From an uncultured Clostridia bacterium (lineage in GTDB: Bacteria > Bacillota > Clostridia > Christensenellales > Borkfalkiaceae): DNA of 64,000 nt. The position numbers and the translations under genes are program-made. Location of the stretch: assembly GCA_947626935.1 (NCBI GenBank), contig CANQUD010000002.1:17587-81586 (forward strand), in the 5' to 3' direction. Each line of letters opens with the position of its first letter. Within the stretch, counting starts at the first letter, position 1. Shown here in pieces: positions 4,683-61,855 of this stretch. The notes below the pieces were generated by a model, which searched no databases, had not been told where the DNA came from, and saw only the letters and a list, made by a program, of their open reading frames with translations.

Positions 4683-4706
4683 ACATAGTACTATGTCAGA
4701 CATAAT
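4683..4706. repeat. dispersed palindromic element, copy 1
   Basis: ACATAGTACTATGTCAGACATAAT; matches the other copies in this window. Confidence 0.7.
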
Positions 4707-15381: not shown

Positions 15382-15421
15382 ATACTATGTCAGACATAGT
15401 TATTATGTCAGACATAGTATT
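15382..15421. repeat. dispersed palindromic element, copies 2a/2b (tandem)
   Basis: ATACTATGTCAGACATAGTTATTATGTCAGACATAGTATT; forms a near-perfect 18-bp stem. Confidence 0.8.
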
Positions 15422-19707: not shown

Positions 19708-21255
19708 TTATCTTAAGAGAGCGAGATACATTTCCTCATAATAATGTGCCGAGGATGCCCAGCTGAAGTCCGTCGTCATTGCCTTGTGAACGAGTTCTTT
19801 CCAGACTTCGCGGTTGCGGTAGACCCCGATCGCCTCATTGATGACATAGAGCATGTCATACGCGTTGTAGTCGTGGAAGGTGAAGCCGTTCCCGCCTGCG
19901 CCGAAGGGTGTGATGCTGTCCCTCAACCCCCCCGTTTCGCGCACGATCGCGACCGTGCCGTAGCGGGAAGCGATCATCTGCGAGAGTCCGCAGGGTTCGC
20001 TCTTGGAAGGCATCAGGAAGAGATCGGCGCCCGAATAGATCTTCCTCGAAAGATCGGAATTGAAGGAAATGACGGAGACGACTTTCCCGGGGTACCTTCT
20101 CGCAAGGTCGGAAAAATATGTCTCGTAGGAAGAATCGCCCGTGCCGAGCAGGATGAACTGCATATCCTGCCGAAGCGCCTGCTCGATGACCTCTCTGACG
20201 AGATCGAGTCCCTTGTGGGTGACGAGACGGGTGATCATGGCAAGAATGGGCGTGTCGGGCTTGACGGGAAGGTTGAGCATGCGCTGCAGTTCTTCCTTGC
20301 AGACGGCTTTCCCGTCCATTCGGTCCGCGCTGTAGTTTTCAAAGAGCGAAACGTCGGTCGCAGGGTCGTAATAGTCGGGATCGATGCCGTTCAGGATGCC
20401 GCGGAGCTTGAATTCGTTCCTGCGGATGATCGGATCGAGTCCGTGCGAATAGTACGGATCCTTGATCTCCTGCGCGTAGGTGGGAGAAACGGTCGAGAAG
20501 CATTCGCAGCACTCGATCGCCCCCTTCATGAGATTGATGCAGCGGTCATATTCCACAAGATTCTGGAAATGATAGGAGATCCCGAAGAGGTCCTCGAGGA
20601 TATCGAGGGAATATTTTCCCTGATACTCTATATTATGAATGGTAAAGACCGCGCGGATGAACTGGTACTCTGGACGGAAACAGTAGATCGTCTTGAGATA
20701 CAGCGCCGCAAGCGCAGCCTGCCAGTCATGGCAATGCATCACGTCGGGATAGAAACCGATGAAGTTCATCGTCTCCATGACGCCGCGGCAGAAGAACGCG
20801 AACCGTTCGCCGTCGTCATAGTAGCCATAGCAGCCGGGACGCTTGAAATAGTACTCATTGTCGAGGAAATAGAAGGTGACGTTGTCCTTTTTATACTCGA
20901 AAATGCCGCAGTACTGATTTCTCCAAGAGAGCGCGACGTAGGTGTTTCCGAGGAATTTGAAGTCCTTTCTGAAATCTTTTTTGATATCCTGATAGAGCGG
21001 GACCATGACGCGGACGTCATATTTATCCTCTCTTGCAAGCGCTTTGGAAAGAGACCCGATGACTTCGGCAAGTCCCCCCGTCGCGATGAACGGCGACGCT
21101 TCCGATGCGACAAACAAGATCTTTTTCTTCGCCTCCGCCGTCACTTCCGCAGGTTCCGCCCTGATCGGCTCCTCGGCTTTCCCCAAAACTTCCACATCGG
21201 GAAGATCGGGCGTCCGCTCCTTCTTTGTTCCCCTCTTTTTCGTTGTTTCACTCAT
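19708..21255 (-). CDS. glgA: glycogen synthase (GT5)
   Basis: FVASEASPFIATGGLAEVIGSLSKAL (KxGGL-like), NGIDPDYYDPATD, MPSKSEPCGLSQMIASRYGTVAIVRETGGLRD. Confidence 0.95.
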   Translation of the reverse strand: MSETTKKRGTKKERTPDLPDVEVLGKAEEPIRAEPAEVTAEAKKKILFVASEASPFIATGGLAEVIGSLSKALAREDKYDVRVMVPLYQDIKKDFRKDFKFLGNTYVALSWRNQYCGIFEYKKDNVTFYFLDNEYYFKRPGCYGYYDDGERFAFFCRGVMETMNFIGFYPDVMHCHDWQAALAALYLKTIYCFRPEYQFIRAVFTIHNIEYQGKYSLDILEDLFGISYHFQNLVEYDRCINLMKGAIECCECFSTVSPTYAQEIKDPYYSHGLDPIIRRNEFKLRGILNGIDPDYYDPATDVSLFENYSADRMDGKAVCKEELQRMLNLPVKPDTPILAMITRLVTHKGLDLVREVIEQALRQDMQFILLGTGDSSYETYFSDLARRYPGKVVSVISFNSDLSRKIYSGADLFLMPSKSEPCGLSQMIASRYGTVAIVRETGGLRDSITPFGAGGNGFTFHDYNAYDMLYVINEAIGVYRNREVWKELVHKAMTTDFSWASSAHYYEEMYLALLR

Positions 21256-21286
21256 GGATCTCTCCCCCTTAACGGATCGATATTTG

Positions 21287-22402
21287 TCAGAGCATTCTGC
21301 CCTTGGCAATGAAGTAAGGCAGGGCTTCGCAGCCTGCAAGGTGCCGTCTGTCACGGATGACGACGTTCTTATCGGTGATGACGCTGTCGAGTTCGACGTT
21401 CGTTCCGATGACCGTATCCTGCATGATGATGGAATTCTTGATGACGCTCCCCTTTCCGACCTTGACGCCGCGGAAGAGAATGCAGTTGTCGACCGTTCCC
21501 TCAATGACGCAACCGTCCGAGATCAAGGAGTTCTTCACGACTGCTCCGTCGATATATTTGCTCGGAGCGGAATCGCGGACCTTCGTATAGACGTCGCGCG
21601 CACCGAACAGTTCGTCCCGAACATCCCGTTGCAAGAGTTCCATGCTGTGGCTGTAATAATTCTGAAGGGAGCTGATCGTCGCGTAATATCCGCCGAACTT
21701 GTACCCGAAGATGCGGAGCGTGTCGACATTCTTTGCAAGGATGTCCCGTCCGAAGCTGGAAAGCCCGCGCGTGACGGCGTCCTGAATCGTGTTGATGAGG
21801 AATTCTCTGCTCATCACCATGATGTTGACGTAGAGATCGAATTTGCCGCTCTTGAGTTTCGGGTTGATCTTGAGACCCTTGAGTCTCCCCGTCTCGTCGG
21901 GCTGGAGCGTCATATAGTAAGAGGACTGGGCGGGTTCCGTCTCTTCGTGATAGACCATCGTAATATCGGCGTTCTTCTCTTCATGGAATCTCAAAATTTC
22001 CTGAAAATCCACCCGTGCGATGCCGTCGCAGTCCGTAATGACGACATAGTCCTCATTGCGGTGCGTCAAAAAGCCCGTGATCCCCATGAGCGCTTCGAGG
22101 CGCGTCGTGTAGGGAGCATCCGTCTCGTCCGAATAGGGCGGGAGCAGAATGATACCGCCGTCCTTTCTCGCAAGATCCCAGTCTTTGCCGCTGCCGAGAT
22201 GGTCGATGAGCGACTGATAATTGTTCTTCGTGACGATCCCGACCGTCGTGATCCCCGAATTCACCATGTTTGAGAGGGTGAAATCGATGAGGCGGTATCT
22301 TCCGCCATAGGGAATGGAAGCCATCGTTCTGTGGCGGGAGAGTTCGGGAATGTTTTCATCGTGAATATTCGAAAATATGACGCCTACTGCAGAATGTGCC
22401 AT
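21287..22402 (-). CDS. glgD: glucose-1-phosphate adenylyltransferase subunit GlgD
   Basis: Nucleotidyltransferase with degenerate active site; next to glgC; LbH C-terminal repeats. Confidence 0.9.
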   Translation of the reverse strand: MAHSAVGVIFSNIHDENIPELSRHRTMASIPYGGRYRLIDFTLSNMVNSGITTVGIVTKNNYQSLIDHLGSGKDWDLARKDGGIILLPPYSDETDAPYTTRLEALMGITGFLTHRNEDYVVITDCDGIARVDFQEILRFHEEKNADITMVYHEETEPAQSSYYMTLQPDETGRLKGLKINPKLKSGKFDLYVNIMVMSREFLINTIQDAVTRGLSSFGRDILAKNVDTLRIFGYKFGGYYATISSLQNYYSHSMELLQRDVRDELFGARDVYTKVRDSAPSKYIDGAVVKNSLISDGCVIEGTVDNCILFRGVKVGKGSVIKNSIIMQDTVIGTNVELDSVITDKNVVIRDRRHLAGCEALPYFIAKGRML

Positions 22403-22403
22403 C

Positions 22404-23597
22404 TTATTCTTCCCCCTTGTAATCCTTATCGATGATCTTTCCGCCCGCGACCTTTCCCGCGACGGAAATATTTCTGCCGAGAACGGCGATCCCGTTCCCG
22501 CTTTCCTTGCTTTCGCCGACCTCGGCGCCCTCTTCGACGACGACATTCTCGTCGATGATGGAATACAAGACCTTGGCGCCCTTCTTGACGACAGTGCCCG
22601 CCATGAGGACGCTGTCCTCAACGGTAGCCCCCTCTTCGATGACGACATTGGACGCGAGAACGGAATTTTTGACGTAGCCGTCCACCTCGCAGCCGAGCGC
22701 CACGAGCGAATTGCTCACGACCGCGCCGTCGCCGATGTGTTCGGGCGGTGCGAGCGGGTTCCTCGAATGGATCTTCCAATCGGGATCGCCCACGTCAAAG
22801 ACGGGATCTTCTCCGAGAAGGTCCATGTTCGATTCCCAGAGGGAAGAGATCGTTCCGACGTCCTTCCAATACCCCTTGAAACGGTAAGAGAACATCTTCT
22901 CCCCCGCATTCAGCATCGCGGGAAGGACGTCCTTTCCGAAATCCTTGGAAGAATCGGGGTTCGCGTCGTCCGCGGCAAGGTATTTGAAGAGCTTTTCCGC
23001 AGTGAAAATATAGATCCCCATGGACGCAAGATTGCTCTTGGGCGCCTTGGGCTTTTCTTCGAACTCATAGATGGACCCGTCCTCGCGGGTGTTGAGGATG
23101 CCGAAACGGGACGCCTCTTTCATCGGGACCTCGATGGCGGCGATCGTGCAATCTGCGCCCGTCGCCTTGTGGGCGCGGAGCATCTCGGCATAGTTCATCT
23201 TGTAAATATGGTCACCCGAGAGAATGAGCACATAATCGGGATTGTATTTTTTCATGAAGGGAAGGTTTTGGTAAATGGCGTTCGCCGTCCCCTCAAACCA
23301 CGACTGCTTTTTCTTCGCCTGATAGGGCGAAAGGATATGCACGCCGCCGAACGCGCGGTCAAGATCCCACGGCTGTCCGTTCCCGATGTATTCATTCAAT
23401 TCGAGCGGTTCATACTGCGTGAGCACGCCGACCGTATCGATGCCGGAATTGATGCAGTTCGAGAGCGGAAAGTCGATGATGCGGTACTTTGCGCCGAAGG
23501 CGACTGCGGGTTTTGCAATATTGTTTGTGAGCGCATAGAGTCTGGACCCCTGCCCGCCCGCAAGCAACATTGCGACACATTCCTTTTTTCTCAACAT
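22404..23597 (-). CDS. glgC: glucose-1-phosphate adenylyltransferase
   Basis: [56 protein letters not shown]. Confidence 0.95.
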
Positions 23598-33368: not shown

Positions 33369-33399
33369 ACATAGTATTATGCCAGATATAGTACTATGT
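33369..33399. repeat. dispersed palindromic element, copy 3 (diverged)
   Basis: ACATAGTATTATGCCAGATATAGTACTATGT; arms ACATAGTA/TACTATGT. Confidence 0.7.
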
Positions 33400-46450: not shown

Positions 46451-46476
46451 AATATTATGTCTGACATAATACTATG
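46451..46476. repeat. dispersed palindromic element, copy 4
   Basis: AATATTATGTCTGACATAATACTATG. Confidence 0.8.
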
Positions 46477-46518
46477 CAAAAGTATGATTTTTAATGGGAA
46501 TTTGTCCAAAATCTGCTC

Positions 46519-57027: not shown

Positions 57028-57043
57028 TCTATGTCAGACAGAG
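57028..57043. repeat. dispersed palindromic element, copy 5 (half-diverged)
   Basis: TCTATGTCAGACAGAG. Confidence 0.5.
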
Positions 57044-57079: not shown

Positions 57080-57102
57080 TTTATGTCAGACATAGTACTC
57101 TG
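57080..57102. repeat. dispersed palindromic element, copy 6
   Basis: TTTATGTCAGACATAGTACTCTG immediately upstream of a -35. Confidence 0.75.
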
Positions 57103-57106
57103 CCTA

Positions 57107-57135
57107 TTGACAAAAAATGAAATTTGTACTATAAT
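57107..57135 (+). promoter_or_regulatory. promoter of the PadR-coiled-coil-TM gene
   Basis: TTGACA-N17-TATAAT. Confidence 0.8.
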
Positions 57136-57162
57136 AGGGAAAAAGTGCTAAGGAGGAAGTCA

Positions 57163-59244
57163 ATGGACGAGGATATCACGACGGTAGAGACAGACGACGA
57201 GAGAAATCCCGAAGCCGAAACGGACAACGAAAAGTCCGAAAAGGGCGTCAGTTCCGATCTCATCCGCGGTCACATCAACACGATCATTCTTCGTTCTCTC
57301 TATGACGGCGACAAATACGGCTACGAGATCATAGCCGAGATCGAGCGCAAGAGTTCAGGGCAATATTCCTTGAAACAGCCCTCTCTCTATTCCGCTCTGA
57401 AGCGCCTCGAGAAGGACGGATACATCACCTCATACTGGGGCGGCTCCGTCGGCGGCGGAAGAAGGAAATACTTCTCCCTCACCGATGAAGGCAAAGCGGT
57501 TTCCGAACAGAATCAAGCGGAGTGGGAGTACTCCCGCACCATCATCGATTCGCTCATCTCCGACCGCGACTTCGACTTCAACCAACCCGCTCCCACTGCG
57601 GTAGACATGAGTGTGCTCCGCAAATCGACTTCCCGCGTCCCCTCTCGGGACGGCGACGACGAGAGCGTCGAAGAGTTCAACTTCGAGACGGGCATCGACG
57701 AGACGGGACTGCGCGAACAGCTCGAGGAGACCTACGAGCAAAAGTCCAAGGCGTTAGAGGACGAATATGCGGAAAAGCTTGCCGCGCTCGACCGTGAACG
57801 CACGGACTTCGAAGCGGAGAAAGCCCGTCTCACGGAAGAGATGAACGCCCGCGAAGCCGAACTCAATGATTCCTACACGGCGAACCTTCGGCAGCTCTCC
57901 TTCATTCGCGAACAGCAAGAAGCGCTCCTTCAGGTCAAGAAGGACGAGCTGGAACGGGAACTCGAAGAAGAGCGTGAACGGCTCCAATCCGAGAAAGAAG
58001 ATCGGGAAGAAGCTCAATCGGAAGCGGACGAATCCCTCAAAACCGAACTCGAACTGCAAAAGCAGAAATATCAAGAGGAGAGCGAAGAGCACGCGCGGGC
58101 GATCCAAGATCTCCGCGAAGCCAACGAACAGGCGCTTTCCGAGCAGCGGGAAGCGAGCGAAGCCTCTCTGCGGGTGGAAAAGGAACTTCACGAAAGGAAT
58201 CTGCAGGAGCTGAACGAAAAGCACGAACGGGAAATGTCCGAACTGCAGGATTCCGCCAGACAGGAAAAGGAAGAAGCGGTCCGCAGAGCGCACGAAGAGG
58301 AAGAAAGGCTCCGTGAGGACAGACTTCAAGCCGAGAAAAACCGCTATAACGATCTCCTGAATGAGGAACGCAGCCGTTACAACAACGCCTTGGCGGAAGA
58401 AAATGCCCGCCACGAAGCGCAGATCCGTGACGACCGTCTCCGCTACCAACAGGCGCTCGACGAACAGCTCGCTGCCCTTCGGAGACAGATGGAACTTGAG
58501 ATGGCGGAGCGGGAAAAGAAGATCATCCACCGCAACTACATCTCCCTCGTCGACCCCGCCGCTGCCCAGCCGCAGACGGTCTACGTCCAGCAACCTGCCC
58601 CCGCTACTCCCGTTCAGGAAGCGCCGAAAGCGGAGAGCGAGGATTACCGCAACGTCGTCGGTCGGCTCTATGAAAACAGCGTCCGCTCCAACAACAGAGT
58701 TCCCGAAGATGCGGCAGCGACCCCCGTTTCTGGCATCGACTTCCGCGATATCCAAAAGCGTGCCGCCCGCGACGGACTGCGCGTGGAGACCGTCGGAAGC
58801 GAAACGAAGGAAGCCGCGGTCCATACCGACGAGATGAATACCGTTCATAAGGGAAAAGCTCTGTTCTTAAGCTCCCTCGTCGTGTTCTTCTGGTGCATCC
58901 TCATCGGCGGCATCACGATGGGACTCCGCGCTACCTTGACGATCCCCGTCGCGTACCCCTATCTCATGTGGGGACTCGGACTCATCCTTCTCCTCACGAC
59001 GGGACTCATGTACGCGAACCACTTCGGCGAAAACAGGTTGCGGAAACGTTCCTTGGCGCTCATCAATGCCATTGTCGTCTACGCGCTCATCGTCATCATT
59101 TCGCTGATCGTTGCCCTCTCCGTCAGGATCAATTTCGGAGACATTTCGCAGCTCATGACCTTCGTTCTCCTGCCTGCGATCTACTTCATCGGAGTTCTCA
59201 TCTTCGGAGTGTGCTACTTCCTTCAGGTCAGACCGAGAAACTAA
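57163..59244 (+). CDS. PadR-type wHTH fused to a long coiled coil and C-terminal transmembrane domain
   Basis: HINTIILRSLYDGDKYGYEIIAEIERKSSGQYSLKQPSLYSALKRLEKDGYITSYWGGSVGGGRRKYFSLTDEGKAV (PadR); Glu/Arg/Lys-rich coiled coil; four hydrophobic C-terminal segments; AGGAGG SD. Confidence 0.85.
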   Translation: MDEDITTVETDDERNPEAETDNEKSEKGVSSDLIRGHINTIILRSLYDGDKYGYEIIAEIERKSSGQYSLKQPSLYSALKRLEKDGYITSYWGGSVGGGRRKYFSLTDEGKAVSEQNQAEWEYSRTIIDSLISDRDFDFNQPAPTAVDMSVLRKSTSRVPSRDGDDESVEEFNFETGIDETGLREQLEETYEQKSKALEDEYAEKLAALDRERTDFEAEKARLTEEMNAREAELNDSYTANLRQLSFIREQQEALLQVKKDELERELEEERERLQSEKEDREEAQSEADESLKTELELQKQKYQEESEEHARAIQDLREANEQALSEQREASEASLRVEKELHERNLQELNEKHEREMSELQDSARQEKEEAVRRAHEEEERLREDRLQAEKNRYNDLLNEERSRYNNALAEENARHEAQIRDDRLRYQQALDEQLAALRRQMELEMAEREKKIIHRNYISLVDPAAAQPQTVYVQQPAPATPVQEAPKAESEDYRNVVGRLYENSVRSNNRVPEDAAATPVSGIDFRDIQKRAARDGLRVETVGSETKEAAVHTDEMNTVHKGKALFLSSLVVFFWCILIGGITMGLRATLTIPVAYPYLMWGLGLILLLTTGLMYANHFGENRLRKRSLALINAIVVYALIVIISLIVALSVRINFGDISQLMTFVLLPAIYFIGVLIFGVCYFLQVRPRN

Positions 59245-61808: not shown

Positions 61809-61833
61809 ATATTATGTCACACATAGTACTATG
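61809..61833. repeat. dispersed palindromic element, copy 7
   Basis: ATATTATGTCACACATAGTACTATG. Confidence 0.75.
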
Positions 61834-61855
61834 CAAGATGCCTTAAAAATCAAAT

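Follow-up and report, generated by a model that had tools for sequence, protein, structure and literature searches.

A predicted membrane-anchored PadR protein of Borkfalkiaceae is associated with polar sites clustered around the replication terminus

In Escherichia coli, the MatP/matS system relies on some two dozen short sites that occur only in the terminus region, and MatP connects the terminus with the division site and also interacts with membranes (PMC6538776). In the RTP/Ter system of Bacillus subtilis and the Tus/Ter system of E. coli, the polar sites around the terminus form two opposed groups; A and B half-sites are found within the RTP sites, and a ter site lies within the promoter of the RTP and Tus genes themselves (PMC10331603). 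The KOPS/AIMS sequences show a strand bias that is tied to replication and is strongest at the terminus (PMC5993296), while RacA of B. subtilis binds DNA and tethers it to the membrane (PMC6593407). PadR proteins recognise ATGT/ACAT repeats, and the terminator protein RTP shares their dimer topology (PMC3506622). Here we describe a 693-aa PadR protein encoded in a 64,000-nucleotide stretch of Borkfalkiaceae DNA (the window, by which we mean the whole stretch analysed). The known PadR/LmrR regulators have the same DNA-binding domain (~36-46% identity in structure alignments), but they are compact cytosolic proteins of ~110 aa without stalk or membrane domain, and the preliminary description was right to set the present protein apart from them.

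The gene and its product comprise the following features:

57163..59244, + strand: long PadR gene, 693 aa, with a PadR winged helix-turn-helix, a predicted long helix and four TM helices (open reading frame, Pfam, hydropathy, AlphaFold)
57107..57135, + strand: promoter-like TTGACA - 17 bp - TATAAT (sequence)
57286..57501, + strand: PadR winged-helix domain, aa 42-113 (Pfam PF03551, 2.7e-19; closest solved structures 1xma, 9qbc/9qbd and LmrR)
57706..58551, + strand: long helix predicted for aa 182-463, probably a coiled coil, which would measure ~42 nm as one continuous helix (AlphaFold secondary structure; weak periodicity)
58849..59229, + strand: four-TM membrane domain, aa 563-689 (hydropathy; AlphaFold blocks mostly at pLDDT 86-96)

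The frame starts with ATG at 57163, its stop ends at 59244, and a ribosome site, AAGGAGG, lies at 57150-57156. PadR (PF03551) was the sole Pfam match of the protein, at 69.4 bits against a cut-off of 27. AlphaFold placed a winged helix at 31-132, in the N-terminal domain that the solved PadR structures listed above match, which bears out the N-terminal PadR domain read earlier from the sequence. The four hydrophobic C-terminal segments were likewise recovered, as hydropathy gave four TM segments and the same ones form a confident four-helix membrane bundle at 563-689 in the AlphaFold model. The claim of a ~300-aa coiled coil held in part: helices were predicted at 182-332 and 336-463 (break at 333-335), and a charged region of 293 residues, with no glycine and three prolines, is predicted to be helical, but heptad periodicity was weak (best hydrophobic period 3.72; shuffle p 0.034 without Ala and 0.15 with Ala). 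As modelled, the stalk is likely to be a coiled coil; because its hydrophobic periodicity is weak, it may instead be a single alpha helix. Sequence and model together predict that DNA-binding and membrane domains reside within one protein.

The window's own genome is a Clostridia MAG that, judged by named relatives, stands near Candidatus Gallimonas. Among 103 genomes of the genus Candidatus Gallimonas (Borkfalkiaceae), 101 had a PadR match, nearly all within a long frame. Most genomes of the family encode one long PadR in an open frame of ~400-1100 aa, and the gene at 57163-59244 is the only PadR of the window's own genome. A survey of domain architecture extended the arrangement to all 41 long members examined, from 15 genera: each has a PadR domain, a linker of ~150-850 aa, four C-terminal TM helices and a short tail. 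Because every one of them keeps this order, the layout is not due to chance. One homologue (L053, in G018) has an acidic N-terminal extension of ~290 residues ahead of the PadR domain. Loss of recognition-helix residues, which the preliminary description had named as counting against its reading, is not a feature of the clade of the window's PadR, where the helix LYSALKRLE is near-invariant. Genera g2, g6, g9, g13, g16 and g17 keep the long PadR and have no copy of the site motif described below upstream of it; in most of them the recognition helix is different from LYSALKRLE.

At 73 of the 80 homologous loci, an asymmetric motif, TATGTCNGACATAGTACTATGCAAA, lies 60-290 bp upstream of the gene with no more than 3 mismatches. 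Fifty-one of these copies are exact and all 73 lie on the gene's strand; the reversed pattern, which served as control, never fell below 4 mismatches across the 80 loci. At the same 73/80 loci, the gene has an ATGT/ACAT inverted repeat of the PadR operator kind, TATGTCNGACATA, upstream of it, although its half-site spacing of 3, against the 8-10 described for PadR, makes it only partly typical (PMC3506622). The core TATGTCAGACATA at 57082 had nine matches in the window with at most 2 mismatches, where 0.95 were expected, and in the window's own genome the exact core occurs 15 times and its reversed control not at all. The copies in the window and the position of the terminus are as follows:

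57082..57107, + strand: TATGTCAGACATAGTACTCTGC, a probable binding site just before the promoter of the gene (kept upstream of 73/80 homologues)
57030..57042, - strand: the weaker of two upstream sites, with one mismatch in the core (motif match)
61813..61838, + strand: motif copy right of the terminus (motif match)
46456..46481, + strand: motif copy with 0 mismatches between convergent genes, right of the terminus (motif match)
33378..33390, no strand assigned: weak motif copy, orientation tied; four other genomes have copies in the orthologous gap
15386..15416, both strands: two adjacent exact cores on opposite strands (15386 -, 15404 +), close to where the orientation flips
4692..4704, - strand: motif copy left of the terminus (motif match)
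20000..22500, no strand: inferred replication terminus, cumulative GC-skew maximum at ~21000 (GC skew)

Alignment of the sites gave an asymmetric 26-bp motif, TATGTCTGACATAGTACTATGCAAAA (the site sequence is also written out as TATGTCTGACATAGTACTATGCAAA), and a refined matrix left the Gallimonas motif nearly unchanged and returned TATGTCAcaCATAGTACTATGCAAA for genus g10. A search for over-represented palindromes, made without reference to PadR, ranked TATGTnnnACATA and CATAGTACTATG highest in G146 and among the highest in G137; in G028 it recovered CATAGTACTATG. Because this search found both elements, the motif is, as judged from its sequence, two overlapping dyads (TATG-N5-CATA-N4-TATGC, then AAA) of 22-26 bp. 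Gallimonas preserves the core dyad well, G028 the tail dyad. Many of the ~95 motif hits in G028 are a variant, TATGTCACGCATAGTACTATGC, with the tail dyad kept and the core dyad broken. Contig C7 of G028 (L183-L188) also holds a palindromic repeat, CGCACCCCnnnnGGGGTGCG, with 81 copies in 117 kb, which is probably a CRISPR array.

The motif is nearly absent from the genomes of g2, g6, g9, g13, g16 and g17 (G051 and G058 have a single exact site each), and neither the upstream regions nor the palindrome search yielded a replacement motif for these genera. For g16, we discarded a variant site suggested by upstream regions, ATTCTGNCAGAAT, which is absent or single in g16 genomes, and a palindrome with 27 copies, GGGCTnnnAGCCC, which is a repeat of mixed orientation located elsewhere than at the gene. 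A ~30-bp intergenic-type repeat, AAAAAGTGGGGCTATAAGCCCGTTATCGCC, occurs in 27 copies of mixed orientation at 102-372 kb of G046 C1 and is absent in the first 100 kb.

Near window position 21000, the GC skew along contig C2 of the genome that contains the window changes sign from positive to negative, as is typical of a terminus; the sites to the left lie mostly on the minus strand and those to the right mostly on the plus strand. The strand switch falls near the GC-skew maximum in five other genomes as well, and orientation agreement in the six genomes (two genera) was 18/18, 14/14, 14/14, 8/9, 7/9 and 15/19. The point that best divides the two orientations and the maximum of the skew lay at 119.5 and 119.2 kb in G146 (18/18), 65 and 62 kb in G137 (14/14), 53 and ~50 kb in G156 (14/14; a local maximum), 237 and 224 kb in G102, 33 and 39 kb in G000, and 60 and 40 kb in G028, the weakest case (18 kb off). 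In 5/6 genomes the skew maximum fell inside the flip interval. When GC skew defined the terminus, 76 of the 83 pooled oriented sites agreed (Fisher 2e-15; orthologous sites are not independent), G146 alone gave p 4e-6, and a looser matrix lowered the agreement to 80/93 in Gallimonas. The terminus was placed by GC skew only, in draft MAGs (in G156 by the local maximum), and our search for dif returned weak matches only and no dif site.

The sites number ~5-100 per genome, lie mostly between genes, convergent pairs included, and are arranged with the 3' tail of the motif towards the origin. Of the 19 sites in the 360 kb of G146 that were read, 18 fall within 150 kb of the terminus, and the p values for terminus clustering were 3e-8 in G146 and 5e-5 in G000. 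None was found on dnaA or parS contigs in G000, G009, G027, G028, G042 and G055, and we rejected an origin or ParB role of the sites, as the canonical parS and dnaA sit on other contigs. Canonical parS, TGTTTCACGTGAAACA, was found at one place, in G000 (C14:29130) and in relatives, on a contig without terminus sites.

By gene calls from a simple codon-usage script, not a standard gene finder, 63 of 90 copies are intergenic, against 10.4 expected (p ~1e-38). The sites are partly shared by descent across genomes, and several have been retained in the orthologous gaps of species with ~60-90% protein identity. Such sites could be the regulon operators of a one-component membrane transcription regulator, the terminus pattern being a by-product of gene layout. 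PadR proteins are regulators, and the site lies next to the gene's own promoter, which suggests that PadR regulates its own gene through it. Moreover, 78% of the genes are co-directional with the fork, so that gene-linked sites would show some polarity; we therefore compared only those cases in which gene and fork disagree or gene pairs are opposed. There, site orientation followed the fork in 21/23 cases, and not transcription. Convergent gene pairs held 13 sites and divergent pairs four, at equal background lengths, and this depletion between divergent genes, with an orientation that tracks the fork, speaks against an operator reading. Terminus clustering and absence from dnaA/parS contigs would also be unexpected for a regulon, and we consider this explanation very unlikely. 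The preliminary description had allowed either a one-component membrane regulator or a chromosome-to-membrane tether. We favour the tether, because a local membrane regulator does not need recurrent, mostly intergenic sites, ~5-100 per genome, that are clustered and strand-polarised around the terminus; the sites, their link to the terminus and their polarity are new relative to that description.

Another protein, for example a nucleoid factor, might bind the sites, with the PadR gene merely one site-adjacent locus. Consistent with this, the long PadR occurs in genera without the motif, and two Gallimonas genomes without a PadR match, G117 (95% complete) and G133 (66%), have sites, which reflects either assembly gaps or another binder. 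However, at the 73/80 loci the upstream site is similarly placed and on the same strand, its ATGT/ACAT half-sites are a known PadR signature (PMC3506622), and G006 (98% complete) lacks both PadR and sites. Another binder is in our judgement quite unlikely, and from the association we infer that the long PadR protein would itself bind the terminus sites. Once bound, it could work as a fork trap, an RTP-like PadR on polar Ter sites that stops forks leaving the terminus, with the membrane part serving only for positioning. The polar sites form two opposed groups about the terminus, which is the layout of the RTP and Tus fork traps; a site stands beside the gene's own promoter, as in the RTP and Tus genes (PMC10331603); PadR and RTP dimers are structurally alike (PMC3506622); and the two overlapping dyads recall the A and B half-sites of RTP sites. 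In addition, no RTP (PF02334) exceeded its cut-off in the 41 genomes searched, while the B. subtilis control was positive. By analogy, direction-dependent fork arrest might occur at the sites. Yet up to ~95 motif hits in one genome is far above the Ter numbers of E. coli or B. subtilis, a long stalk and four TM helices are unnecessary for fork arrest, and the better-kept dyad differs by genus (core in Gallimonas, tail in G028) and so points to no single blocking face. We regard a fork trap of this kind as unlikely.

Drawing on the architecture, conservation, site enrichment, terminus clustering, polarity and upstream site observed computationally, we consider it probable that the long PadR is a membrane-anchored terminus-binding protein, and that bound terminus DNA is held at the membrane and the terminus domain thereby organised or retained. 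A PadR dimer would bind polar 22-26 bp sites of two overlapping dyads, and ~5-100 of these would mark the terminus region of each genome, the motif 3' tail facing the origin. A helical stalk of variable length and the four-TM domain would hold the terminus DNA at the membrane, a MatP-like (E. coli) or RacA-like (B. subtilis) role within one integral membrane protein, whose own gene is probably regulated through the site upstream of its promoter. We infer both the tethering of DNA in vivo and a reason for the polarity, which may let forks or translocases pass towards the terminus, or stop forks leaving it. A stalked membrane PadR protein that, on polar sites, ties the terminus domain to the membrane and at the same time imposes one-way passage on the replisome or DNA translocases is possible, though doubtful.

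The long PadR belongs to none of the MatP, RacA, RTP and Tus families; PadR as the only Pfam match on the 693-aa protein speaks against MatP membership, and no PF02334 match on it against RTP membership. Its system is like MatP in having short sites restricted to the terminus region, as expected of a MatP-type Ter organiser. MatP, however, is neither an integral membrane protein nor a PadR protein, and matS, to our knowledge non-polar, differs from the present sites, which flip at the terminus. RacA combines an HTH with a coiled coil and acts near the origin, through DivIVA and without TM helices. The long PadR is like RacA in its proposed role as a DNA-membrane tether and in joining an HTH to a probable coiled coil, but it has predicted TM helices and its probable sites lie at the terminus. 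The polar opposed site groups, the site by the gene's own promoter and a PadR-like dimer topology are likenesses to RTP/Tus, although the long PadR system has more sites and a membrane stalk. In contrast to KOPS/AIMS, the present motif is 22-26 bp long, with ~5-100 mostly intergenic copies. In the literature, we found neither a membrane PadR tether nor a PadR terminator.

We know of no description of a MatP- or RTP-like terminus system from these gut Clostridia, nor of any PadR protein with a role in chromosome organisation. If the proposal is true, one gene would link DNA sequence, replication polarity and the membrane, and this would be one more case in which the use of polar terminus sites evolved independently. 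Given the similarity in fold between PadR and RTP, the family may also offer a model for terminator proteins arising from transcription regulators. The sites themselves are a sequence ruler that places the terminus in draft genomes of this mostly uncultured lineage.
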